This document shows positions 4,543-31,406 of a DNA stretch of 32,329 nucleotides, one piece after another; within the stretch, counting starts at the first letter, position 1, and the number at the start of each line of letters is the position of its first letter. Origin of the DNA: Bacteroidales bacterium (GTDB lineage Bacteria > Bacteroidota > Bacteroidia > Bacteroidales > UBA10428); the NCBI GenBank assembly GCA_016931575.1, contig JAFGEO010000065.1, positions 1 through 32,329 on the forward strand, written 5' to 3'. The notes below the pieces were generated by a model that did not search any database, was not told the DNA's origin, and was given only the letters and a program-made list of their open reading frames with translations. Both the position numbers and the translations under genes were made by a program.

Positions 4543-5694
4543 TCAGAGTTCTGACCGGCCTTTCCAGCGCGAGGGAAAGAGTTGGCTTGTCACTGCTGCC
4601 AGCGTAAGGTAAAAAGGGTATATCAGCTCAAATAGCGGCAACAGTATGGATTGTCTTTTTCTTCCGAAAAAGTTCAGCCCTGAAGTAAGCATGTACCCAT
4701 CTACCGTCAGTTTTCCTGAAATTAGTGCGATGAGCCAGGGCCAGTATCCGCTTTTAAAAAAAGAAAATCCAAGCAAAAGCACCAGCACTGCGTTGAAGAG
4801 CAGAACCAGAAGACTCAGGGCAATTGTATCCCGGTCTGTGTAGGAAGGGCTTTTGGATGCCCATCGGATACGTTGTTTCAGAAACTGCCCCATCGTTTCG
4901 GGTGATGTGGTTGATACCTTGGAGGTCTGGCCTTTAAGTACCTGTATCCGGGCATTAGGGACCTGCTTTACTGCATGGAGAAGAAAGACATCATCGCCGG
5001 AGCGCTCTTCGAGCTTAAGATTTTTGCGAATGTTCAGGTAGAGTGTTTTTGCAACACAAAGGTTGGCGCCGTTGCATAAGGTGGGGTGCTTTTTTGCTGC
5101 CGAACCGGCTCCTGTAATGATCAGGCTCAGAAATTCCAGCCGAAAGAATAGGCTTAACAGGCCGGACCGGACAGTCTGATCCACCAGGCCAATGATCAGG
5201 TCAGCTCCGGTTTGTTTCTGAAAAGCTGCAAAAGATGCTATCCAGTCCTTATGTACCCTGCAGTCGGCATCGGTTAACAGCAGGTAATCGAACCGGCTTC
5301 GCCGGGCCCCTTGAATCAGTGCCAATTTTTTCCCGGTTTCTCCCATAGGGAGACTCAGAACCTGCAGATTTTGCAGGGAGGTGTTCCTGACAGCAGACAA
5401 ACTGCTGACAGGATTTAATGAGTGGTCATCGATAATAAGCACCTCAAAGCGGTCAGGAGGGAAGGATTGCTCTTCCAGATCTTTTATTAGCCCGGGGAGG
5501 GTATGATCTTCATCCCGGGCAGCGATGAGGACGCTCATTCCGCAGGATGAGCTGCCCGGTTTCCCTGCAAACTCAGGAATTTTTCGCCATCCTGAGGTAA
5601 GCCATGCTATCACTCCAAAATAGCAGAGGCCAATCAGGGCTGAAAATAGCAGAAATATATCGATGTTCAGGCTGATTATCTGGAAGCAAGCCAT
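4543..5694 (-). CDS. Membrane-anchored family 2 glycosyltransferase
   Basis: This 383-residue GT2 enzyme probably transfers sugars from a nucleotide- or lipid-linked donor at the inner face of the membrane. An N-terminal membrane segment (about 5-33) precedes the GT-A fold. Visible are MSVLIAARDEDHTLPGLI, the donor-site acidic motifs IIDDHS and LLTDADC, the GDDVFLL segment, and QRIRW, which fits the QxxRW signature of processive GT2 enzymes. Two or three hydrophobic segments close the protein. The sugar and acceptor cannot be read. Its ATG lies inside the last codons of the upstream hybrid kinase gene (19-nt overlap), so the two are probably translationally coupled. That suggests, but does not prove, that the kinase and a surface-glycan step are co-expressed. 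Confidence 0.85.
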   Translation of the reverse strand: MACFQIISLNIDIFLLFSALIGLCYFGVIAWLTSGWRKIPEFAGKPGSSSCGMSVLIAARDEDHTLPGLIKDLEEQSFPPDRFEVLIIDDHSLNPVSSLSAVRNTSLQNLQVLSLPMGETGKKLALIQGARRSRFDYLLLTDADCRVHKDWIASFAAFQKQTGADLIIGLVDQTVRSGLLSLFFRLEFLSLIITGAGSAAKKHPTLCNGANLCVAKTLYLNIRKNLKLEERSGDDVFLLHAVKQVPNARIQVLKGQTSKVSTTSPETMGQFLKQRIRWASKSPSYTDRDTIALSLLVLLFNAVLVLLLGFSFFKSGYWPWLIALISGKLTVDGYMLTSGLNFFGRKRQSILLPLFELIYPFYLTLAAVTSQLFPSRWKGRSEL

Positions 5695-8600
5695 TGATCG
5701 ATTTTTAGAAAGAGTTCAGAAATATTTATAGGTTTGGTTACGAAGTCGTCGCAGCCGGCGTCAAAACAACGCTGTCTCTCTTCAGCGATGGCATTGGCAG
5801 TTTGGGCGATTATCGGAATATTTTTGAATTTATCCTTAATGATCCTTGTGGCTTCCATGCCATTCATTTCAGGCATCTGCACATCCATGAGGATTAAATC
5901 GATTTCAGGGTGTTCTTCACAGGTTTTGACAGCTTTCTGACCGTCTTCAGCATGCATGATTCTGGCATTGGTTTTTTTCAGGAAGCCTTCAAGCAATTTA
6001 AAACTAAAGGTATCATCTTCAGCAACCAGAAACAAACGACCTTCCCAGTTGTAATCCGTTTTTGGTTTTTTCTTTTCGATTTCTTCCAGCGGTTTCTTAT
6101 GGCCGGCGACATAGGGAATGTTAAAGTGGAATACCGATCCTTCATTTTCTGTTGAGGTAGCCCACATTTTACCGCCAAGTAATTCGACAAAGCCTTTGGA
6201 GATAGCCAGTCCTAATCCGGAGCCGCTGTATTTTCTTGATCTTGAGTAATCTGCCTGCACAAAGCGTTCAAAGATCAGCTCAAGTTTTTCAGGAGCGATA
6301 CCAATTCCGGTATCTTTAACATAAAACTGTATCAGCCCATCTTTTGGGGCATGGTATCCAAATTCTATATAGCCCTCCTTGGTAAATTTAAAAGCATTCC
6401 CGACCAGGTTCATAAGAATTTGTCGCAGGCGGTTTGGGTCGCATAAAATAAAGCTTTCCTGGTTTTCCAGGGCTTTTTTTACCCGGAGTTTTAATTTTTC
6501 CGGATCTTTTTTCAGCGTTTCAGAGAGAAATGAGGAATGGATCTGTGTCAGTAGGGCATTGAGGGAGAATTCCTGTTTCAGGATCTTGATCTCTCCGGCT
6601 TCAATCTTAGCGAAATCAATCACATCATCAATAAGGTTCATCAGCATTTTGCCATTATTATTGATGATCTCTACGTATTTTTTCCTGTTGCCTTCGCCCA
6701 GGTGATCGTCATTTAGCATCTCAGCAAATCCCAGGATACCATTCATTGGGGTACGGATCTCATGAGACATGTTGGCCAGGAAGGCTGTTTTTAGCTTATC
6801 CGATTCCTCTGCTTTCTCCTTGGCTTTGATAAGTTCATATTCCAGTTGACTTCGTTGCAGGGCTACCGAAACCTGGTGTACAAAAGTTTCGATGATATGC
6901 TTATACTTGATGATCGTATTGTTAAGGGTCAGGATCAGAATATTACCAAGCAGTTTATTGTCCCGTGACATCGAGATATAATAAATCTTACTGACGTTGA
7001 GGGACTTTTTAATTTTCTTAAGCTTACTCAGGATATGGCGGTTCAACCCGAGATCCTCAACTGATCCTTTGAATATTGATATATTTCCGGCATTTGAAAT
7101 GCTTTTTGTAAGATCGTTGATCTCATAAAGCTGTCCTATGAGTTCATCCTCATAAATGGCATTTAAAGCTTTCAGGATCTCGGGGTCAGAATCAATTGCT
7201 TCAATTTTAAAGGTGGTCTGTTGTTCCTCAAAACTGGATACAGCTACGATAGCATACTCAAGATATTCATAAAGCTTTTTACCAATATATTTATAGATGT
7301 CAGTCTTACCGGAAAGGCCCAGGAGCTCCAGTGCCGAGTTGCTCAGAAAAACCAGGTTGTCATGATAAACACGTTCTTTAAGTTCTGACATTTTCCGGTC
7401 TGAGATATCACGTGAATTAACAACGATACCCCGGATCGACGGATTATGGATGTGGTTGGAAAAGATAGATTCCACATAAATCCAGCGTTTGTTTTTATGA
7501 AGGCACCTGTATTCCCTTTTTAGTTGTTCTGTTGGATGCGACTTCAGCGTTTTCATGATGTCCCTGAAGATATAAATGTCGTCAGGGTGGATAATTTCCT
7601 CGAATGATTTTCCAATAATTTCATCAATCATGAAATCGGTTATCCGGTTCCGGAGTGCGCTTTCGAACATGATGGTCCCTGATTTATCCAGGATCGTGAT
7701 AGTATCGGAGGAATATTGAAGCAGGGCCCGGAAATGTTCTTCATTTCGGATGATCGTATCCTCCATCGCTTTACGGTCGGTTATATCGCGGGCGATACCC
7801 GTTATTCCAAGAAGTTTGTCCCCTTCTCCAAAGATGGGAGAGGCAAAGGTCTCAATCCAGCAGGGATTTCCTTTTATGTTCCATTCGTCTTCAAAGTATT
7901 TTCTTTTTCGGGCGACCCTGACAGCGGTATCATACTTTGAAAGAAGGTGAGTAATATTCTCGTCGAAGAGTTCATCATCGTGTTTTCCGATAATATCTCC
8001 TGAATGGAGGTCGAAGAAAGAGGCGAAAGGTTCGTTGATTGAGATGTACCTGCCTTCATTGTCCTTCAGCCAGGCCAGGTAAGGGATGTTATCCAGGATG
8101 GCTTTTTGCTGCACCCTTCCTCGTGAAACCGCATTTTCAAGTTCATATTGGCTGCTGAGGTTTGTTATAACAATGAGTTCCCTGTTTAGTTCTTTCTTTG
8201 AGGTTAGGATCCGGGTGACGCGCATCCAGACCAGTTTTTTAATTCCTTTGGGAGTTACGATGGAAAACTTCCTGCCGGTATCAGGGAGGCTATCATTTTT
8301 AAGGTCCCGTTTAAATGCGGCATATTTTTTTTGTTCTCCTGGATCCAGCAGGCTCAAAATGATATCTTTGTTTTGGTATGCCTGATCGGGTGTGATATCG
8401 AATAATTCCTTAAAAGCAGGATTCACGTAGATGATACGCTCCTGGTCAGAGAGGATAAGGGCATCCTTGGTATATTCGGCCAACTGACGAAAACGTGATT
8501 CACTTTCCCGGATGAATTCTTCAGCTTCTTTACGGAAACTAATGTCGTTAAGAAAAACTGAAACGCCGACAATTCTGTACGTGGTATCAAAAACAGGTTT

Positions 8601-9668
8601 CACATTATATTCAAAGAACCTGGTCCGCTCATGCTCCAGTATGTCGATTTCCCCCCTTGAACTTTCGCCTTTAAGTGCCTTCTGATATGCTTTTTTCCAC
8701 ATGGAAGAATAGCTTTTCGGGAATGCATCCAGGGCGTTAACACCTTCGCGGATGCTTTTCGCAAAGTGAGCCTCGGCAAATTTTGAGAATCCTGAGTTCA
8801 GTCTGACGATCTTAAAGTTCTTATCTATCAGCCAGATCAGCGACTCAGAGCTCTCAATCAGGTTATTCAGATTGGTTTGAGTGTCAATGATCGAGTTTTC
8901 GACAGAACTAAAATCAAAGAATTCATGACCTGAAATAAGGATGGAGGACTCGTTATTATCCCGGGAGGGGATGACGACCCTTCTGACAATAAAGTCCCTA
9001 ATAAACTCCGAGGAAGAAGCCAGGAGCATATGCTGAGGTCCTTTCTTTAGGACCATTTTCAAAAAGACTTCATCCGCATCAAATATTTCACCCAGGCTCT
9101 TCCTGTAAGCGGATTTAATTTTTTCTTTTGATACCAGGGAGGGGGTATTAACAGTTAGAAAGTTGAAAAAGGTTTTATTTCCGGTGATGATCTCACCCTG
9201 CAGATTGCGGATATAATAGAAATCATCAATTCTTTCAAAGAAGGAGCGCAATTGCATCCCGATGCCCTTCAGGCTTTCCTTTCCTACAGATACAGGAGGA
9301 ACAAGCGATATATAGCCAGCATAATACGCTGCTTGTTGGAGCGGAATTCTTTCTATACTGACGGAAACGGGATGATGGTCGCCCTTAATTGTTCTCAGGG
9401 TGGCTCTTCTAAGGTATGGGTAATTCAGCTTTTTTTTCTGTGAGGTGAACTCATCGATAAAGTCAACAGAAGTAAACAATTTGTCGATTCGTGATTGGTA
9501 ATGCCCGAAAACAACTTCCTCATTCTCGCTTCCGAGAATGGATAACATGGTCTTATTCATCCAGACCAGCTCACCTGAAGGAGAGAACAGGAAAACTCCC
9601 AGCGAAATTTCAGAAGTTACCTTCCTGTATAGCTCAAGAGAAGATTGTCTGTTATCGTGGGGATTCAT
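5676..9668 (-). CDS. Multi-PAS hybrid sensor histidine kinase with receiver domain
   Basis: A 1330-residue hybrid kinase with no obvious membrane segment, so probably cytosolic. In order there are about six PAS-type modules (roughly 10-125, 140-235, 270-380, 385-505, 520-635, 640-760), with DITDRK and DISDRK linkers typical of PAS-PAC units. A GAF-like region follows at about 770-930. The HisKA box SHEIRTP has its phosphorylatable His near 969. The ATPase domain shows the N box (NLVGNAFKF, about 1087), DTGIGI (about 1119) and GSGLGL (about 1149). The C-terminal receiver (1210-1330) has paired acidic residues (1218-1219), Asp 1262 in LMDVQMP, and the TKP lysine near 1312. There is no DNA-binding output, so a separate phosphotransfer partner is expected; none is in the window. 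Its 3' end overlaps the glycosyltransferase start. Confidence 0.93.
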   Translation of the reverse strand: MNPHDNRQSSLELYRKVTSEISLGVFLFSPSGELVWMNKTMLSILGSENEEVVFGHYQSRIDKLFTSVDFIDEFTSQKKKLNYPYLRRATLRTIKGDHHPVSVSIERIPLQQAAYYAGYISLVPPVSVGKESLKGIGMQLRSFFERIDDFYYIRNLQGEIITGNKTFFNFLTVNTPSLVSKEKIKSAYRKSLGEIFDADEVFLKMVLKKGPQHMLLASSSEFIRDFIVRRVVIPSRDNNESSILISGHEFFDFSSVENSIIDTQTNLNNLIESSESLIWLIDKNFKIVRLNSGFSKFAEAHFAKSIREGVNALDAFPKSYSSMWKKAYQKALKGESSRGEIDILEHERTRFFEYNVKPVFDTTYRIVGVSVFLNDISFRKEAEEFIRESESRFRQLAEYTKDALILSDQERIIYVNPAFKELFDITPDQAYQNKDIILSLLDPGEQKKYAAFKRDLKNDSLPDTGRKFSIVTPKGIKKLVWMRVTRILTSKKELNRELIVITNLSSQYELENAVSRGRVQQKAILDNIPYLAWLKDNEGRYISINEPFASFFDLHSGDIIGKHDDELFDENITHLLSKYDTAVRVARKRKYFEDEWNIKGNPCWIETFASPIFGEGDKLLGITGIARDITDRKAMEDTIIRNEEHFRALLQYSSDTITILDKSGTIMFESALRNRITDFMIDEIIGKSFEEIIHPDDIYIFRDIMKTLKSHPTEQLKREYRCLHKNKRWIYVESIFSNHIHNPSIRGIVVNSRDISDRKMSELKERVYHDNLVFLSNSALELLGLSGKTDIYKYIGKKLYEYLEYAIVAVSSFEEQQTTFKIEAIDSDPEILKALNAIYEDELIGQLYEINDLTKSISNAGNISIFKGSVEDLGLNRHILSKLKKIKKSLNVSKIYYISMSRDNKLLGNILILTLNNTIIKYKHIIETFVHQVSVALQRSQLEYELIKAKEKAEESDKLKTAFLANMSHEIRTPMNGILGFAEMLNDDHLGEGNRKKYVEIINNNGKMLMNLIDDVIDFAKIEAGEIKILKQEFSLNALLTQIHSSFLSETLKKDPEKLKLRVKKALENQESFILCDPNRLRQILMNLVGNAFKFTKEGYIEFGYHAPKDGLIQFYVKDTGIGIAPEKLELIFERFVQADYSRSRKYSGSGLGLAISKGFVELLGGKMWATSTENEGSVFHFNIPYVAGHKKPLEEIEKKKPKTDYNWEGRLFLVAEDDTFSFKLLEGFLKKTNARIMHAEDGQKAVKTCEEHPEIDLILMDVQMPEMNGMEATRIIKDKFKNIPIIAQTANAIAEERQRCFDAGCDDFVTKPINISELFLKIDQWLASR

Positions 9669-18187: not shown

Positions 18188-21100
18188 ATGAAGTACTTCT
18201 TTCCCCCTGTTTTTATCTTTTTTCTGTTATTCTCAGAAATTGTAGCTGCGGTCAGTTTTCAATTTGATCATATACGGGTTGAACAAGGACTGCCAGATAA
18301 CACCGTAAACTGTTTTATTCAGGATGGCGATGGGTTTATTTGGTTCGGCACCAATGACGGACTATGCCGTTATGACGGTTACTCGATACGGATTTTCAGA
18401 AATAAGGCCGGCGATTCAAAATCCTTAAGTAATAATGTGATTATTTCACTGGCATTGGATCACTCCGGGAACCTATATGTTGGAACGCGAAACGGAGGGT
18501 TGAACATATTGGACCTTCAAACCGAGAAATTTACCCGGTGTAAACCTGCAGAGGGTGATCAGGCATCGGAGAATACGATTCGCACCATCTTTATTGACAG
18601 TCGGGAGCGAGTGTGGATAGGGACGCTTGGAGGTGGCCTGTATGAGTTTCGTCCCGGAGATAATTCGTGTATTTCCTATCGACATATTCCAGGCCAGAAT
18701 AGTTTGAGCGATGATTATATATACTCAATCCTGGAAAAAGAACCCGGAAAATTGTGGATTGGAGCTGAGGGTGGAGGTATTGATCTGTTTGATTATGAGA
18801 ACAAGGTATTCTCCTACTATGAGTTCAAAGCAAATTATGAGCCGGGCAGACAGATATTCGGAAAGATCCTTTTTCAGGATAGTCAGGGAAATATCTGGAT
18901 AGGTACAGGAGGCTACGGGGCATATATTTTTCATCAGGGAACGGGGACCTTTAAGCATCTGGGATATGGGACAGGCAGGGAAGGTTTAAAAAGTAATATC
19001 GTGACTTCCTTTTACGAGGATGCCGATGGTACAATCTGGATCGGGACAGATGGAGGAGGCGTTACCATGTACGATCCGCATACTGCGAAGTTCAGTTATC
19101 TGATGCACGATGCTGAAAATGGACAAAGTCTTAGCAGCAATGCCATCTATTCTATCTACCAGGACCATAAGGAGAATTTATTCATTGGCACCTTTCGCGG
19201 GGGGATAAATATCTTCGATCCGTACAAATATAAATTTGAGCATTATACCCAAAAGCCATCCGGTAGAAACTGCCTTAGTTTTAAATCGGTCCTGGCAATT
19301 TGCGAAGACCGTGAAGGAGTAGTATGGATAGGAACTGACGGAGGCGGGCTGAACCGTTTTTCACCCGATACGCGATCCTTCCATCATTATATCCATGATC
19401 CCAAAGATCCTTCCAGCATCCCCGGAAATGTTATTAAGGCCATTCTGGAAGACAGCCGGGGGAATTTGTGGCTGGGCACCTATGCAGCTGGTTTGATTCG
19501 ATTTGACAGATCGAAAGGTACATTTACACAATATAGCCATGATCCTGAGAACTCTAATAGCATAGGGCATATGAATGTATGGGCTATTTATGAAGACAGC
19601 TATGCGAATCTATGGATTGGACTGATGGGAGGGGGGCTCGATCGTTTAAACAGGGAAACAAATACCTTTGAACATTACAGACACAGCAGTAATCCGGAGA
19701 GTCTGAGTAGCGATAATGTAAAAACTATCCTGCAGGATAACCGGGGAAATATCTGGATTGGGACGGAAGGAGGAGGACTCAACCTCTTTTATCCAGAAAA
19801 GGGCACCTTTAAATCATACCGAAAAGATTTAAATCAGGGAGGTAGCCTAAGCAATGATGATATCCGTGCACTTTACGAAGACACAAAGGGAAACCTATGG
19901 ATTGGAACCGCAGACGGACTTTGCAGGATGACTGGCAGTAAGGAAAAATTTACTTGTTACACTACCGAGCATGGTTTGCCAAATGCTGTAATTAACGGGA
20001 TACAAGAGGATGGTTCGGGCAACTTATGGATAAGTACAAACCAGGGCCTAAGCAGGTATACGCCCCAAAATAACACATTCAGAAACTATACAGTAAGTGA
20101 CGGACTGCAGGCGAACGATTTTAACTACACCGCATCCCTGGAGTCTGCAGCAGGGAAAATGTATTTTGGAGGCAGCAACGGATTCAATGTATTTGACCCG
20201 GAATCAATAAAAGACAATCCCTATACCCCTGAGGTTGTGCTCACCGGGCTTAGTGTTTTTGGTAAGCAGGTGAATCCTGGCGATAAGCTTAGTGATCGTA
20301 TTATCCTCAGGGAGTCCATCAATAAAGCAAAAGAAATTGAGCTTGGCTATAAAGAGAATGTATTCTCACTCAGTTTTGCAGGTTTACACTATAGCTCGCC
20401 TCTGCGTAACCGGTATCAGTATAAGCTGGAAGGATTTGATGAAGCCTGGATTACTTCAGATGCTTTACATCGTACTGCTACATACATGAATCTGGATCCC
20501 GGAACGTATACCTTCAGGGTAAGGGCTTCTAACAGCGATGGGAAATGGTCGACGGATGAAAAAAACCTGGTGATTACCATTTTGCCACCTTGGTGGAGAA
20601 CGGCATGGTTTATTTCGCTTTGTATCCTGGCTGCTCTGGCTGCGGGTGTGGGAATATATGTCTGGAGAAGCCGGGAGATTAAAAATCAGAGAAAGCACCT
20701 GCAGGATACTGTGCAGGAAAGAACCGGGGAACTGAATGAGGTGATCTCCCTGGTTCGTGAGCAGAGCAAAAAAATCTCTGCTTCAGGAGAATTGTTACGC
20801 AATCGGTCAGCAGCCTTAGCTGAGGGGATTAGCAGCCAGGCAGAAAGTGCAAAAAGAATTGAATATGAGGCCGAAGAGCTGACACAGCATACACGGCTCA
20901 ACCGGGAGAATGCATCCAAAACAGATAACATTACCGCGAATACCATTGGAGAGATTGAGAAGTTAAGGCAATCTGCCCTGAAGAATATTGAAGAGATCGA
21001 AGTTATTTCTGAAAAAACTAAAATGCTTGAAGAGATCTTTACCCAAACGAATATCCTGGCGATTAATGCATCCATTGAGGCAGCAAGAGCCGGAGAACAG

Positions 21101-21457
21101 GGGAAGGGATTTGCCATCGTGGCTCAAGAAGTCAGGAAGCTTGCCATCAATAGCCAGCAGGTCTCGAGTGAGATTATGGTATCAGCAGAGAAAGGAGTGA
21201 ATATCACCCGCCAATCGGGAGATTTTATGATCAGCTTTATCCCCCAGATTGAGAAAGTGACACAGCTTGTAAAAGAAATCGCAGATGCCAGCCATCATCA
21301 GAGTGCTTCCATTGAGAACATCAATGCATCCCTGAAGGAATTCTTCGGCAGCTCGCATGAGCACAATTCCATTTCGCATGAAATTGCTACCATTTCACAA
21401 CAACTGGATGAGCTGGCAAAGCTTTTAAAAGACAGGGTGATGGCTGTCAAACTATAG
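18188..21457 (+). CDS. Propeller/Y_Y_Y transmembrane sensor with chemotaxis signalling domain
   Basis: This 1089-residue protein begins with a signal peptide or anchor (MKYFFPPVFIFFLLFSEIVAA). About 13-14 periplasmic propeller repeats of the type D..GNIWIGT.GGGL..FD fit two seven-bladed propellers. A Y_Y_Y domain follows (about 720-790, with YQYKLEGFDEAWI and PGTYTFRVRASNSDG), then PPWWRTAWF and one membrane segment (about 800-825). This is the sensory half of hybrid two-component systems that detect glycan fragments. The cytoplasmic part is not HisKA/ATPase/receiver/AraC. It is a long coiled coil with the methyl-accepting signalling hairpin (TNILAINASIEAARAGEQGK, about residues 953-972; FAIVAQEVRKLA). 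No HAMP domain and no che gene are visible. The longer frame from 18170 starts six residues earlier; the ATG at 18188 gives the better signal sequence. Confidence 0.9.
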   Translation: MKYFFPPVFIFFLLFSEIVAAVSFQFDHIRVEQGLPDNTVNCFIQDGDGFIWFGTNDGLCRYDGYSIRIFRNKAGDSKSLSNNVIISLALDHSGNLYVGTRNGGLNILDLQTEKFTRCKPAEGDQASENTIRTIFIDSRERVWIGTLGGGLYEFRPGDNSCISYRHIPGQNSLSDDYIYSILEKEPGKLWIGAEGGGIDLFDYENKVFSYYEFKANYEPGRQIFGKILFQDSQGNIWIGTGGYGAYIFHQGTGTFKHLGYGTGREGLKSNIVTSFYEDADGTIWIGTDGGGVTMYDPHTAKFSYLMHDAENGQSLSSNAIYSIYQDHKENLFIGTFRGGINIFDPYKYKFEHYTQKPSGRNCLSFKSVLAICEDREGVVWIGTDGGGLNRFSPDTRSFHHYIHDPKDPSSIPGNVIKAILEDSRGNLWLGTYAAGLIRFDRSKGTFTQYSHDPENSNSIGHMNVWAIYEDSYANLWIGLMGGGLDRLNRETNTFEHYRHSSNPESLSSDNVKTILQDNRGNIWIGTEGGGLNLFYPEKGTFKSYRKDLNQGGSLSNDDIRALYEDTKGNLWIGTADGLCRMTGSKEKFTCYTTEHGLPNAVINGIQEDGSGNLWISTNQGLSRYTPQNNTFRNYTVSDGLQANDFNYTASLESAAGKMYFGGSNGFNVFDPESIKDNPYTPEVVLTGLSVFGKQVNPGDKLSDRIILRESINKAKEIELGYKENVFSLSFAGLHYSSPLRNRYQYKLEGFDEAWITSDALHRTATYMNLDPGTYTFRVRASNSDGKWSTDEKNLVITILPPWWRTAWFISLCILAALAAGVGIYVWRSREIKNQRKHLQDTVQERTGELNEVISLVREQSKKISASGELLRNRSAALAEGISSQAESAKRIEYEAEELTQHTRLNRENASKTDNITANTIGEIEKLRQSALKNIEEIEVISEKTKMLEEIFTQTNILAINASIEAARAGEQGKGFAIVAQEVRKLAINSQQVSSEIMVSAEKGVNITRQSGDFMISFIPQIEKVTQLVKEIADASHHQSASIENINASLKEFFGSSHEHNSISHEIATISQQLDELAKLLKDRVMAVKL

Positions 21458-24825: not shown

Positions 24826-24856
24826 TCGAGTAGCATAATCGAAAACATTGAAAAGC

Positions 24857-26641
24857 ATGATAAAAATTACGAATTGGGCAGTTATTTTTTTTACTGCATT
24901 GATCTTTCTGGATTCTTCAATTGCCCAAACCGCAATGATTAATGTTGAATCCAGAAATTTGAAGAGCCTTAACGGAAATTGGAATGCACTAATTGACCCA
25001 ACAGGAATTGGCGAATGGAGACAGGTTTGGCTGGAAAAAACACCCGAAAAGAAGACGGATTTCTTTGAATATTCATTTGAGGGAGCATCAGAATTGAAGG
25101 TTCCTGGTGATTTCAATTCTCAAAAGTGCGAATTGACTTTTTTTGAAGGAACGGTCTGGTATAAAACGCAATTTGACCATGCTTTAGGAAATGGGAAAAG
25201 ATTATTTCTTCATTTTGGAGGTGTTAATTACATAGCAGATGTGTATTTAAATGGCAGGAAAATTGGAACACATGAAGGAGGATTTACTCCTTTTCAATTT
25301 GAAATTACGGATAAAATAATAACCGGGATTAACACCATCGTTGTCAAAGTAGATAACCACCGTCTGGGGAACGGTTTACCAGGTTATGGTTATGATTGGC
25401 TAAACTATGGAGGAATAACCCGTGATGTTAATCTAATTGAAACTAACAAAACTTATATTTCAGATTATTTTGTACAACTGAAAAATGGAAGTCTGGAAAC
25501 AATACTTGGATGGATACAGTTAGACGGCATTCAATCTGAACAAAATATTAAAGTAAAAATACCTGAACTTAATATTTCATTTCAAACAAGATCCGATAAG
25601 AATGGATATGCAAATATTGAACTGACTGCTAATCTCGAACTCTGGTCACCTCAGATACCAAAGCTCTATAAGATTATCATTGAAAGTGAAACGGATACCA
25701 TTGATGATAATATTGGATTCAGGTGTGTAGAAGTTGATGGGAACAAAATATTACTGAATAAGGAGCCTATCTTCCTGAAGGGCGCTAATATTCATGAAGA
25801 AAATCCATATTCAGGAACAAGAGCCAATTCTTTGGAGGATGTCAGGATCCTTTTAAATGCAGCGAAAGAAATGGGATGCAACCTTGTTCGATTAGCTCAC
25901 TACCCCCATAATGAATATATGGTAAGAGAGGCGGAAAAGATGGGTTTAATGGTATGGGAGGAATTACCGATCTATCAGCATATTGAATTTTCCGATAGCC
26001 TGGTGCCCAAAAAGATGGACATCATGCTTAAAGAAATGGTTCATAGAGATAAAAACAGATGTGGAGTGGTTATCTGGAGCCTGTCTAATGAAACATATTC
26101 TTTTACCCCAATGCGTGATTTGGAATTAATTAAGTTGACCAATAACTGCAGAGCGCTTGATTCGACAAGATTAATTACTCATGTGATCAATAACCAGGGT
26201 TATAAAAAAAACACCTTTAATGTTTGGGATACTTTATATAAATATTCCGATTTGATAGCACTCAATGAATATATTGGTTGGTATATTCCCTGGCAAGGTA
26301 ATCCGTCAGAAACAAAATGGGACATTGTTTATCCGGGAAAGCCAGTTTTTATTTCAGAATTTGGCGGAGAAGCTCTATTTGGCAGCAAAACCGGGCCGAC
26401 AGATGAAGCTGCAAATTGGACCGAAGTATATCAGGAAGATATTTACATAAAGCAGGTTGAAATGTTCGGTAATGTCCCTAATTTGATTGGTGTTTGTCCT
26501 TGGTTGTTATTCGATTACAAATCATTAGGCAGAATGCATCCAACTTATCAAAACGGATATAACAGAAAAGGTTTATTATCGGAAAAGGGGGAAAAGAAAA
26601 AGGCCTGGTATATCATGAAAGAATATTATAAGAATAAATAA
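24857..26641 (+). CDS. Secreted glycoside hydrolase family 2 enzyme
   Basis: A 594-residue GH2 enzyme (the beta-glucuronidase/beta-galactosidase family), exported by its signal peptide (MIKITNWAVIFFTALIFLDSSIAQ). The sugar-binding jelly-roll lies at about 60-185 (WYKTQF, VYLNGRKIGTHEGGFTPF, then the DWLNYGGITRDV block). An immunoglobulin-like sandwich follows, then a TIM barrel containing LVRLAHYPHNEYM. The acid/base is Glu412 in WSLSNET and the nucleophile is Glu501 in ISEFGGE. The NYGGITR block and short length are closer to beta-glucuronidase-type GH2 than to LacZ, but the substrate is uncertain. I use the ATG at 24857; an in-frame TTG at 24848 adds three residues. It is AT-rich like the preceding gene and lies next to the 3' side of the tRNA-Pro. 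Confidence 0.92.
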   Translation: MIKITNWAVIFFTALIFLDSSIAQTAMINVESRNLKSLNGNWNALIDPTGIGEWRQVWLEKTPEKKTDFFEYSFEGASELKVPGDFNSQKCELTFFEGTVWYKTQFDHALGNGKRLFLHFGGVNYIADVYLNGRKIGTHEGGFTPFQFEITDKIITGINTIVVKVDNHRLGNGLPGYGYDWLNYGGITRDVNLIETNKTYISDYFVQLKNGSLETILGWIQLDGIQSEQNIKVKIPELNISFQTRSDKNGYANIELTANLELWSPQIPKLYKIIIESETDTIDDNIGFRCVEVDGNKILLNKEPIFLKGANIHEENPYSGTRANSLEDVRILLNAAKEMGCNLVRLAHYPHNEYMVREAEKMGLMVWEELPIYQHIEFSDSLVPKKMDIMLKEMVHRDKNRCGVVIWSLSNETYSFTPMRDLELIKLTNNCRALDSTRLITHVINNQGYKKNTFNVWDTLYKYSDLIALNEYIGWYIPWQGNPSETKWDIVYPGKPVFISEFGGEALFGSKTGPTDEAANWTEVYQEDIYIKQVEMFGNVPNLIGVCPWLLFDYKSLGRMHPTYQNGYNRKGLLSEKGEKKKAWYIMKEYYKNK

Positions 26642-27322: not shown

Positions 27323-29953
27323 ATGAAACTACGGGGAATAATTACACAGCGATTTCTTCTACTGGCAGCATTGACCTTGCTGATAACCTGCAAGCAGGCA
27401 GAACCCTACCTTGATCCCAACCTGCCCATCAGCCAGCGGGTTGACGATCTGCTGTCAAGGTTGACGCTTGAGGAAAAGATTTCCCAGCTTACGGAAGAAT
27501 CTGCAGCAATTCCCAGGTTGAACATTCCGGAATATAACTGGTGGAGTGAAGGACTTCACGGAGTAGCCCGTGCAGGGACCGCAACGGTATTTCCTCAGGC
27601 CATCGGCATGGCTGCAACATTCGATGATGCGCTATTATTTGATGCAGCTGATGTTATTTCCGATGAATTCAGGGCTAAATACAACCAATTTCAGGCGAAG
27701 GGAGAGCGTGACCGGTACAAGGGGCTTTCTGTCTGGTCGCCGAACATTAATATTTTCAGGGATCCCCGATGGGGGCGTGGACAGGAAACCTATGGAGAAG
27801 ATCCCTACCTGACATCCCGCATGGGAGTCGCCTTTGTAAAAGGTCTCCAGGGCAGTCACCCAAAATACCTGAAAACCCTTGCCACCCCAAAGCATTATGT
27901 TGTGCACAGCGGTCCCGAACCCAGCCGGCATGAATTTAATGCGGAGGTCAGTCAGCGGGATTTCATGGATACCTATCTGCCTGCATTTGAAGCCTGCATC
28001 GTGGAAGGGAAGGCACAATCCATTATGGGGGCCTACAACCGTTTCCGGGGGGAATCCTGCTGCGGAAGTTCCTACCTGCTGACCGACATTCTTCGTAAAA
28101 AGTGGGGATTTACCGGGTATGTGGTTTCCGATTGCGGAGCAATTTTTGATATTTACGGGAATCATCATCTTGCATCTTCCGAAGCAGAGGCGGCAGCGAT
28201 TGGAATTAAATCAGGTTGTGATCTGAGTTGTGGCAACGCCTATTCAAAACTTGGTGAAGCCATTGATTCGGGCTATTGCACTGAGGAGGATCTCGATGTT
28301 GCGCTTAAACGGTTGTTCACCGCACGGATGAAACTGGGAATGTTCGATCCGAAGGAAGAAGTACCTTTCAATAAGATTCCCTATGAGGTGAATGACTGCC
28401 AGGTTCATAAAGAACTGGCCCTTAAGGCTGCACAAGAATCCATGGTGCTGCTTAAGAATGCGGATCATACCCTCCCCTTATCAAAAAACCTGAAATCCAT
28501 TGCAGTGATTGGTCCAAATGCCGATAATGCTGAGGTGATGTACGGAAATTACAATGGTTTTCCTTCAAACCCGGTAACACCGCTACAGGGAATAAAAAAT
28601 GCCCTGGGAGAAGGTGCTGAAGTGTTATATTCCAAAGGCTGCAGCTACCATGAGGATTTCATTGAGAAAGAGGTGATCCCATCAACCTATTTAAGCATAG
28701 ATGGTAAAGAAGGATTGAAAGTTGAATATTTTAACAATACGGACCTGGAGGGAGAACCTGTACTTGTCAGGACAGAGCCGGAAGTAAACTTTTCCATTTT
28801 TGACGAAGCTCCGCTTGATGAATTATCCAGGGACGATTATTCGATACGATGGAGTGGTAAACTAACTATTAAGGAGGCAGGAACTTATGATCTTTACCTA
28901 TCCGGAGATGACGGATTTCGTTTTTGGCTGGATGGAGAATTATTGCTGGATGAGTGGGAAAGCGGATGGAAAACCAAGAAGCTAAAGTTTGACTTTAAAG
29001 AAGCGGGCAGTCACGATCTGAAGATCGAGTACTATCAGCACCAGTGGGGTGCAAGTATGTTCCTGGAATGGGGAGTCTCCACAGGAGATATGGAGGCTGA
29101 AGCGCTGGACATCGCCAGGAAGTCGGATGTTGTTGTGTTCGTGGGTGGATTGTCGCCACGTCTCGAAGGTGAGGAAATGGAGGTGGACCTCTCAGGGTTC
29201 AATGGAGGGGACAGAACCGATATTACGCTGCCCAAAAGTCAGCTGAACATGCTAAAGAAATTACATGATCTCAAGAAGCCAGTTATTCTCGTTCTGATGA
29301 ATGGCAGTGCCCTGGCAGTGAACTGGGCGGATGAAAACCTTCCAGCCATCCTGGAAGCCTGGTACCCCGGACAGTCGGGAGGAACGGCCATTGCTGATGT
29401 GCTTTTTGGTGATTACAATCCTGGCGGGCGATTGCCAATTACCTTCTATAAGTCGGTGGATCAGCTTCCGCCATTTGAAGAGTATGCGATGAAAGGACGT
29501 ACCTACCGGTATTTTGAGGGTGAGCCTTTGTATGAGTTCGGATATGGACTGAGTTATACGCAGTTCACATACAGCAATCTTCAGATCCCGGATAATCTCG
29601 AAGCGGGAAAGGAGTTAAAGCTTGAGGTAGAAGTGGAGAATTCCGGAGACCGCGATGGCGATGAGGTAGTGCAGGTCTACATCCGCCACAAGGATGCGAC
29701 GGTTCCTGTGCCCCTGCATGCCCTGAAAGGGTTTAAGCGCATTCACCTGGCAGCGGGAGCAAAGACAAAAGTAAGCTTTACCATTCCGGTGAAGGAGCTG
29801 ACCGTGATCAGCGATAAGGATGAATGGGTTATCCGTCCCGGCGCACTTGAAGTGTTTGTAGGAGGACAACAGCCTGGGAACGGTGAGCGGAATGTTATAT
29901 CAAAGACTGTTAATAAAACCGGTGATGAAGTAGTTGTTAATAGCCTGGATTAG
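27323..29953 (+). CDS. Lipoprotein glycoside hydrolase family 3 with PA14 insert
   Basis: This 876-residue enzyme is probably a beta-xylosidase or beta-glucosidase acting on oligosaccharides in the periplasm or at the outer membrane. The lipobox is LITC (Cys23). The GH3 barrel begins near 37 (RVDDLLSRLTLEEKI) and has YNWWSEGLHGVA (71-82), the substrate-pocket PKHYVVHSG, and the nucleophile Asp270 in GYVVSDCGA. The second domain (about 370-735) is interrupted at about 455-595 by a PA14 module (GLKVEYFNNTDLEG, YLSGDDGFRFWLDGELLLDE), which can shape chain-length selectivity. A fibronectin-III-like domain (about 770-870) closes the protein. The WWSEGLHG motif favours the xylosidase-type clade; the substrate remains inferred. 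It has its own promoter just upstream. Confidence 0.93.
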   Translation: MKLRGIITQRFLLLAALTLLITCKQAEPYLDPNLPISQRVDDLLSRLTLEEKISQLTEESAAIPRLNIPEYNWWSEGLHGVARAGTATVFPQAIGMAATFDDALLFDAADVISDEFRAKYNQFQAKGERDRYKGLSVWSPNINIFRDPRWGRGQETYGEDPYLTSRMGVAFVKGLQGSHPKYLKTLATPKHYVVHSGPEPSRHEFNAEVSQRDFMDTYLPAFEACIVEGKAQSIMGAYNRFRGESCCGSSYLLTDILRKKWGFTGYVVSDCGAIFDIYGNHHLASSEAEAAAIGIKSGCDLSCGNAYSKLGEAIDSGYCTEEDLDVALKRLFTARMKLGMFDPKEEVPFNKIPYEVNDCQVHKELALKAAQESMVLLKNADHTLPLSKNLKSIAVIGPNADNAEVMYGNYNGFPSNPVTPLQGIKNALGEGAEVLYSKGCSYHEDFIEKEVIPSTYLSIDGKEGLKVEYFNNTDLEGEPVLVRTEPEVNFSIFDEAPLDELSRDDYSIRWSGKLTIKEAGTYDLYLSGDDGFRFWLDGELLLDEWESGWKTKKLKFDFKEAGSHDLKIEYYQHQWGASMFLEWGVSTGDMEAEALDIARKSDVVVFVGGLSPRLEGEEMEVDLSGFNGGDRTDITLPKSQLNMLKKLHDLKKPVILVLMNGSALAVNWADENLPAILEAWYPGQSGGTAIADVLFGDYNPGGRLPITFYKSVDQLPPFEEYAMKGRTYRYFEGEPLYEFGYGLSYTQFTYSNLQIPDNLEAGKELKLEVEVENSGDRDGDEVVQVYIRHKDATVPVPLHALKGFKRIHLAAGAKTKVSFTIPVKELTVISDKDEWVIRPGALEVFVGGQQPGNGERNVISKTVNKTGDEVVVNSLD

Positions 29954-30341
29954 TGTATAGTCAGGACGATAAAGATGTAAGTAATAGATATGCTAATAGG
30001 TATATTAATAGACATGATTGAAACCTAAAGTATTATTACCCACAAGGGGAAGAATAACCTGTTGACGAGCCTAGCCGGAATGAAGGAAGAGACTTTCCGG
30101 GGATCCATTGAGGCATCGAAAGTCTGGTTAGTGAAGAAGATCTGATTGAAGGTTTTGGGGCGATGTTTATTTCAATAGACCAAATTTTAAGTGAAGGTTT
30201 ATAAGAATATACTGTGTATCACAGCTATCATGTTTTTTTTGTAACTTGAACCCTGTCTTCAACCCATTCATCTGTTCAACCGGTTTTGCCTCTCACACCG
30301 GGTATTTGAAAACCTTTAATTCAGCCAATTTACTATTCAAG
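29954..30341. other. Intergenic region with possible decayed coding sequence
   Basis: The 388-nt gap shows two overlapping frames that read as protein-like pieces (30029-30145 and 30112-30204). The right end before the lipoprotein at 30342 contains a T-run near 30233-30240 but no clear terminator stem or TAnnTTTG promoter. Confidence 0.45.
30029..30204 (+). pseudogene. Possible frameshifted gene remnant
   Basis: One frame (30029-30145) reads ...LLTSLAGMKEETFRGSIEAS... to a TGA. A second frame (30112-30204) reads GIESLVSEEDLIEGFGAMFI... to a TAA. The two overlap by about 30 nt, and the composition of both is coding-like, as expected if an indel split one C-terminus. No family is recognised and no start is visible, so this is a weak call. 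Confidence 0.2.
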
Positions 30342-31406
30342 ATGAAAAAACATGTAATTTCTTATGTGATCCTGGTTCTTCTGACTTGGGTTTTTTCATG
30401 TGAAAAACCACAGGATCTGATTTCTGGGGAGAAAGAAAGCATTAGCTATTATTTTACTCTGAATGAAAATGCTCCTGCAGGCACCGTTCTGGGTACCGTC
30501 GAAGTGCCAATTGCCATGGATGGTCAGCCAGGTTATTACGCTATTACGGAAGGGGATCCTGACGGAGCCTTTAAAATTGATCCATCAAACGGAGAAATTA
30601 GTGTGCTGGACAGTACACAAATCGATTATGAAATTCACCCTGAATTTAACCTGCTGATAGAATTTCTTACCTCCGCAAAATGTTCACAACCGAATATGGT
30701 AAGGGTATTGGTAGAAATTCTTGACAGCAATGAAATTTCTAAAGAGAAATTAGTTGCTTCCTACCCATTGGATGGAAACGCGGAGGATATCAGCGGTAAT
30801 CTTCTGCATGGAGAGGCAATCGGGACATTTCCCTACTATAACCGGTATGCTGAAGAGGATAAAGCACTCTGGTTTAACGGAACATCAGATTACATTGTTT
30901 TCCCCAATGAATTTGACCTCCGGAAAAAAACCATATGCTTTTGGTTTAAAGCGGAGGATGTTCCGGAATGGAATGCAGATGATCCTGCCAATTCAGTTGG
31001 GGTCCTTTATTGCAGCGACCATTCGCGACTCAGGTTCGGTCCGACTAAAGTATTCGTAACCAAGGTAGCCGGGGAACCCAAAATTTGCTTTTATAACGGT
31101 GGACAATCTGCAGACCTTGATTATAGTTACAGCATTTCCGAAGGTCAATGGTATTTTGCGGCACTCACGGTATTTCGCAGAGGAATAACCTACTATCTCA
31201 ATGCCGAAGAAATCGGATCAGGAGATTTTCCTCCGCGCCAGCGACCCACTGAATACACGGAGCCTGAATATTCTACCGCGGGCGTTGCCAGCAGCTTTGA
31301 TAAGGGTTACTTTAAAGGCAGAATAGATGACCTGAAAGTTTATTCTGATATTTTATCACCTCAGGAAATTATCAATATCTACAAAGAAAAGGAGGAGACA
31401 GAATGA
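30342..31406 (+). CDS. Lipoprotein with cadherin-like and LamG-like domains
   Basis: This 354-residue lipoprotein has signal MKKHVISYVILVLLTWVFSC, with Cys20 as the lipid site. Residues 34-130 form a cadherin-like domain (FTLNENAPAGTVLGTV, AFKIDPSNGEISVLD, with the calcium-binding NENAP and D..NGEI features). Residues 137-354 form a concanavalin/LamG jelly-roll (ASYPLDGNAEDISGN, ALWFNGTSDYIVFP, and a closing FKGRIDDLKVYSDILSPQEI). Such proteins bind carbohydrate or matrix polymers at the cell surface; no catalytic residues are seen. A TTG at 30246 opens the same frame, but the ATG at 30342 gives a proper lipoprotein signal. The transglycosylase-like gene follows after 28 nt and is probably co-transcribed. 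Confidence 0.88.
   Translation: MKKHVISYVILVLLTWVFSCEKPQDLISGEKESISYYFTLNENAPAGTVLGTVEVPIAMDGQPGYYAITEGDPDGAFKIDPSNGEISVLDSTQIDYEIHPEFNLLIEFLTSAKCSQPNMVRVLVEILDSNEISKEKLVASYPLDGNAEDISGNLLHGEAIGTFPYYNRYAEEDKALWFNGTSDYIVFPNEFDLRKKTICFWFKAEDVPEWNADDPANSVGVLYCSDHSRLRFGPTKVFVTKVAGEPKICFYNGGQSADLDYSYSISEGQWYFAALTVFRRGITYYLNAEEIGSGDFPPRQRPTEYTEPEYSTAGVASSFDKGYFKGRIDDLKVYSDILSPQEIINIYKEKEETE

Follow-up and report, generated by a model that had tools for sequence, protein, structure and literature searches.

Hybrid two-component system (HTCS) proteins are a main route by which Bacteroidota sense polysaccharide fragments and switch on the genes to eat them. The window analysed here, the whole stretch of 32,329 nucleotides of contig JAFGEO010000065.1 (assembly GCA_016931575.1, a Bacteroidales bacterium), carries a gene in which the sensor head of such a protein appears joined to the signalling hairpin of a chemoreceptor. 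Is this fusion a genuine gene, how far is it conserved, and may it connect glycan sensing with a chemotaxis system?

The gene encodes 1089 amino acids in a single uninterrupted frame (see table). The frame is open to 21457 from either 18170 or 18188, and the latter start is preferred since it agrees with the signal peptide and with the start of the orthologue described below. Pfam assigns Reg_prop (E 1.7e-72), Y_Y_Y (E 1.2e-19) and MCPsignal (E 1.6e-27; 96.9 bits against a curated cut-off of 34.6), all three above their curated cut-offs within the one frame. Hydropathy exceeds 1.6 at two sites only, the N-terminus and residues ~803-827, indicating a signal peptide and one span. The motif PPWWRTAWF occupies residues 800-808 and the hairpin-tip sequence INASIEAARAGEQGKG residues 959-974. 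The initial annotation, made from the letters alone, had described a periplasmic half with propeller repeats, Y_Y_Y domain, PPWWRTAWF and one membrane span, followed by a chemoreceptor-type coil with this very tip; Pfam and hydropathy bear out both halves, the former counting 13 Reg_prop stretches. HAMP, HisKA, HATPase_c, receiver and AraC domains, which the same annotation had reported missing, are indeed not among the 11 Pfam families listed up to E 1. Because HisKA, HATPase_c, receiver and AraC are absent at this threshold, the protein is not filed as an HTCS. We regard it, with a probability of about 0.7, as a chemoreceptor that carries the head of the Bacteroidota hybrid two-component glycan sensors.

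Table. Features of the fusion gene, in positions of the window
Feature	Position	Strand	Basis
Whole fusion gene, propeller head and chemoreceptor hairpin	18188..21457	+	frame, Pfam, full-length orthologue
Signal peptide, residues 1-22 (approximate)	18188..18253	+	hydropathy, sequence
Periplasmic propeller, 13 Reg_prop, residues about 24-700	18257..20287	+	Pfam, 4a2l sequence and fold match
Y_Y_Y domain, residues 735-799	20390..20584	+	Pfam
Single membrane span, residues about 805-827	20600..20668	+	hydropathy
Putative connector helix at HAMP position (boundary approximate)	20669..20767	+	alignment with two G688 kinase-type paralogues
MCPsignal hairpin, residues 902-1074	20891..21409	+	Pfam, structural comparison
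Hairpin tip, kinase-control region, residues 944-985	21017..21142	+	identity to 76 non-fused receptors

Both halves have well-known relatives. Against PDB sequences the outer half matches the HTCS periplasmic domain 4a2l (E 5.7e-139) and the inner half Tsr 6s1k (E 2.3e-21). The predicted model of the outer half aligns with 4a2l, the periplasmic domain of BT4663, at a TM-score of 0.92 by target length and 0.64 by query length, and the nearest fold of the modelled head is that of this heparin/heparan-sulphate sensor. The full-length model has low confidence in its hairpin half. Modelled alone as a monomer, the hairpin is all helix (mean pLDDT 91.6, pTM 0.52), with the helix running unbroken through the tip, a feature that counts against the preferred reading. 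A PDB search with this hairpin model returned chemoreceptor entries for all of the best 15 matches, one of them a YfmS-CheW model, and then unrelated coiled coils. The Bacteroides HTCS proteins BT4663 (4a2l/4a2m), BT3049 (3v9f) and BT4673 (3ott) share the Reg_prop propellers and Y_Y_Y domain with the window protein, which differs from them in its output half, a chemoreceptor hairpin in place of HisKA, ATPase, receiver and AraC domains. With E. coli Tsr (1qu7, 8c5v) and Thermotoga maritima 2ch7 it has the MCPsignal hairpin and tip in common, but it carries a head of ~780 residues and neither HAMP nor a consensus methylation site. Its hairpin is 14 residues shorter than that of Tsr across the aligned stretch (203 versus 217), a length that we take to fit one of the shorter heptad classes, such as 34H. 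HAMP is common but not universal in chemoreceptors; that some contain none is stated in a passage of PMC6628036.

A join of two genes by misassembly or chance was the obvious concern, the assembly being fragmented (168 contigs, contamination estimate 4.35). A genome of another genus of the same family, G688, encodes a 1095-aa orthologue with 56% identity over residues 4-1088 that is colinear across the identical junction, and seven further proteins have the same architecture. This full-length orthologue in a separate genome excludes misassembly, which had been named as one way in which the fusion might fall, and we give an artefact a negligible probability; the direct reading of the fusion from the DNA stands, as one frame with a conserved junction.

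Among 23 genomes searched within the family, two besides that of the window gave near-full-length matches: G688, and G693 of the same genus as the window, which matches over residues 9-1056 at 32% identity. A junction-spanning profile built from the window protein and the G688 orthologue gave spanning matches in at least six of 393 genomes of the order, at no fewer than eight loci; among the matches listed these are the window, G738, G693, G788, G535 and three loci in G786. Four to five candidates were scored per genome in the order and phylum screens (two in one other screen), so 6/393 is a lower bound. In the phylum, where 395 genomes were screened, the window's own match is the single one among those listed that spans the junction. 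A second profile, made from all nine proteins, recovered the same eight loci above 500 bits, which match by construction, and no ninth locus among the matches listed for the order; the next match, at 217 bits, is non-spanning. The three domains score above their cut-offs in all eight homologues, namely the G688 orthologue plus seven proteins from five other genomes. The G738 copy ends early at a TAG in its C-terminal arm. An earlier hairpin query of 295 genomes of the order, with up to eight candidates scored in each, had yielded 17 long frames, none with a propeller, and missed the G535 fusion even though G535 was included; the junction profile, which listed it, overturned the view that no other fusion exists. 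The architecture is thus rare, recurrent and conserved, and at these frequencies (at least 6/393 in the order, at least 1/395 in the phylum) it is not the common and already characterised arrangement that the initial annotation had named as a ground for refutation. The combination of Reg_prop, Y_Y_Y and MCPsignal was not found in the main text of the open-licence papers searched; domain databases may list the architecture. The words 'propeller' and 'Reg_prop' are absent from the main text of two surveys of receptor sensor domains (PMC11237719, PMC8547431). Both halves being already known, it is their combination that appears new, as far as the literature searched is concerned.

The nine fusions fall into two subtypes. 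Subtype A (window, G688, G738) is grouped by the propeller (SH-aLRT 98) as well as by the hairpin (99). Subtype B, the other six, forms one hairpin set (96, or 100 in a second tree that excluded four long rows), and its propellers are scattered. These were quick trees without bootstrap, with long-branch warnings on the hairpin trees; similarity to the window protein decided which propeller rows were included (68, or 63 once copies were removed), and the hairpins came from 123 matching frames, 120 of them with a usable tip and 85 distinct. A single clade of all nine propellers was rejected (p-AU 0.00014; the group was named after the tree had been seen, and one row, G786a, is long), which speaks against one origin for these heads. 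A single clade of the nine hairpins was not rejected (p 0.894, the constrained tree being the better one). Since the propeller clade is rejected whereas the hairpin clade is not, both tests being post hoc, it is probable that heads and hairpins came together more than once, either in separate fusions or through heads being exchanged, two routes that look alike as long as the hairpins may form one clade. At the tip, the six subtype-B sequences (L191-L196) have GK/R followed by S/T beside the turn; GK/R followed by G is seen in subtype A and in 12 resident receptors of the window genome.

As to where the halves were joined, two kinase-type paralogues of G688 have, behind the membrane span, a helix similar to that of the window protein, after which the aligned sequences diverge. 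This resemblance suggests that the join falls after a connector helix which would stand in for HAMP. The nearest non-fused propellers in the tree belong to Reg_prop/Y_Y_Y paralogues in G688, G692, G693 and the window genome itself (seven rows out of ten in one starred set). Read by eye rather than by Pfam, two of them have a histidine kinase as their inner half and five have GAF plus a long coil; none has a hairpin match. Several Reg_prop/Y_Y_Y proteins (L118, L115, L116, L099, L096, L093 and L109-L112) have an inner half with a coil of the EELRQNLEEMQATQEE type, and those read by eye also contain a GAF-like part.

A search of the window genome for che genes, suggested in the initial annotation, recovered CheA, CheW, CheR and CheB as well as CheD and a CheC-like protein. 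The genome holds 13 MCPsignal frames including the fusion, and five CheW-family frames, two of which are CheA. CheW-family matches, frames of CheA length among them, are present in all seven fusion-bearing genomes. In G788 the genes cheY, cheA and cheW are followed 435 bp downstream on the same strand by the fusion gene, and in G688 an ordinary chemoreceptor gene lies 269 bp downstream of the orthologue, again on the same strand. The 42-residue tip of the window protein shares a mean identity of 65.7% with 76 non-fused receptors (the 85 distinct hairpins minus the nine fusions), compared with 23.9% and 34.9% for the arms; conservation of the tip above that of the arms is the pattern that would be expected if the contacts of the tip were kept. 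The arms align gap-free with 10 of the 12 resident receptors (one of the ten is truncated) and with indels in the other two. Che genes, neighbourhoods, tip conservation and arm register lend indirect support to the coupling to CheA/CheW that the initial annotation had put forward, and that we likewise infer.

Other signalling genes were seen along the way. The window genome contains a chemoreceptor match with an in-frame TAG (L005, G000:C99:15209-15709), and the window itself encodes a 1330-aa multi-PAS hybrid histidine kinase with a receiver at 5676-9668 on the minus strand. In two che clusters a coiled-coil protein precedes cheY (L120:4801-6534, L191:14165-15967). These two proteins, for which no Pfam match was found up to E 1e-5, end in ELELF and NLELF, which resemble the pentapeptides that close many local receptors.

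The term 'methyl-accepting', used in the initial annotation, finds no support in the subtype of the window protein; the term chemotaxis-type holds. Scored with the methylation consensus, none of the three subtype A proteins has a full site, and five of the six subtype B proteins have one; a full consensus occurs in 71 of the 76 non-fused receptors and in 9 of the 12 resident ones. Of the 73 non-fused receptors whose stop is visible, 42 have a tail of the CheR-docking type, an acidic-aromatic pentapeptide at the C-terminus; none of the nine fusions, eight intact and one cut short, has one. The missing consensus in subtype A and the missing docking tail make normal adaptation doubtful, and by its sequence the window receptor probably does not adapt through its own methylation. 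This lowers the claim to 'methyl-accepting', not that to 'receptor'. The head also sets a limit on array fit. In a rough volume estimate, a dimer of heads occupies 21.9 nm2 at a height of 9.5 nm, and a receptor lattice with its 12-nm spacing offers 20.8 nm2 per dimer, so that the protein could be a minority member only, among small receptors.

The description of the protein as a glycan sensor agrees with the homology of its head and with neighbouring genes, and by family the head would be one; a glycan as the actual ligand is our reading of these similarities. Two of the G786 fusion genes have sulfatases, a sialate-type esterase and a GLAA-B-type protein encoded 2-8 kb downstream, the G788 gene adjoins a sulfatase-family gene, and other carbohydrate genes lie near the third G786 fusion and the G693 fusion (frames hand-picked throughout). 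In the window, GH2 and GH3 genes are located 3.4-8.5 kb downstream (24848-26641 and 27323-29953, plus strand), separated from the fusion by a gene on the opposite strand. Counted without a background rate, this neighbourhood weakly supports a glycan ligand. The GH2 and GH3 genes are followed by a laminin-G/cadherin protein (30246-31406). Neither Che-family nor SusC/SusD-type Pfam matches were found among the 19 neighbouring window frames scanned, and the missing Che-family match counts against the preferred reading.

Starting from the observed fusion and its conservation, the conserved tip, the Che genes and the neighbourhood in two relatives, we infer ligand, array membership, sign and output of the receptor as follows. 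A dimer would bind a periplasmic oligosaccharide with its propeller heads. The change would travel by way of the Y_Y_Y domains and the one membrane span and, without HAMP, into the short connector helix, which would pass it to the four-helix signalling bundle. In a mixed array with ordinary receptors the conserved tip may then alter CheA activity via CheW, and CheY-type regulators would carry the output. In its widest form this explanation holds that, on more than one occasion, Bacteroidales without flagella have taken glycan sensors of the HTCS type out of gene control and connected them to CheA/CheW, steering gliding or other surface behaviour, with one subtype lacking both methylation-based adaptation and HAMP. 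We put this forward as a tentative proposal.

The nature of the output is where a different explanation competes. The hairpin may contact CheW/CheA as a non-adapting input while the Che output is not movement but gene expression, pili or development, a pattern known from alternative chemosensory systems. The CheA step is common to this explanation and the mechanism above, and the difference lies in the output, so the odds of the two overlap; this too is a possibility that we entertain with reserve. No flagellin match was found in any of the seven fusion-bearing genomes, the methylation consensus is missing in the subtype of the window, and a STAS-domain gene and a receiver-like gene (by eye) precede one of the genome's own CheA genes. 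A secretion/pilus ATPase scores above the cut-off in three of the seven genomes. GldL is matched in all seven, above the cut-off in six; as it serves type 9 secretion as well as gliding, its presence is no proof of motility, and gliding is possible. CheR, CheB and CheD, together with the methylation consensus in the resident receptors, indicate an ordinary adapting array, which speaks against this alternative. By its title, PMC12239597 (2025) reports that T9SS rotation takes its direction from a conveyor-belt-associated protein; a passage of the paper sets the outer-membrane ring in contrast to CheY-P acting on the flagellar C-ring.

Alternatively, the protein may be a degenerate or decoy receptor that binds glycan in or near arrays and barely controls the kinase. 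Absence of the methylation consensus and of the docking tail would fit this, as would the early end of the G738 copy. We consider it unlikely, because length and junction are kept across two genera at 56% identity, the tip even at 76.2%, and because subtype B retains a methylation site in most of its members.

A chemoreceptor with the head of a glycan sensor remains our preferred reading. A conserved HTCS-type head on a chemotaxis hairpin would, if this is true, connect polysaccharide sensing with behaviour. The protein is a clean test case for how a chemoreceptor bundle can be driven by a double-propeller head that has a single membrane span and lacks HAMP, and it offers a handle on the roles of Che systems in bacteria without flagella.
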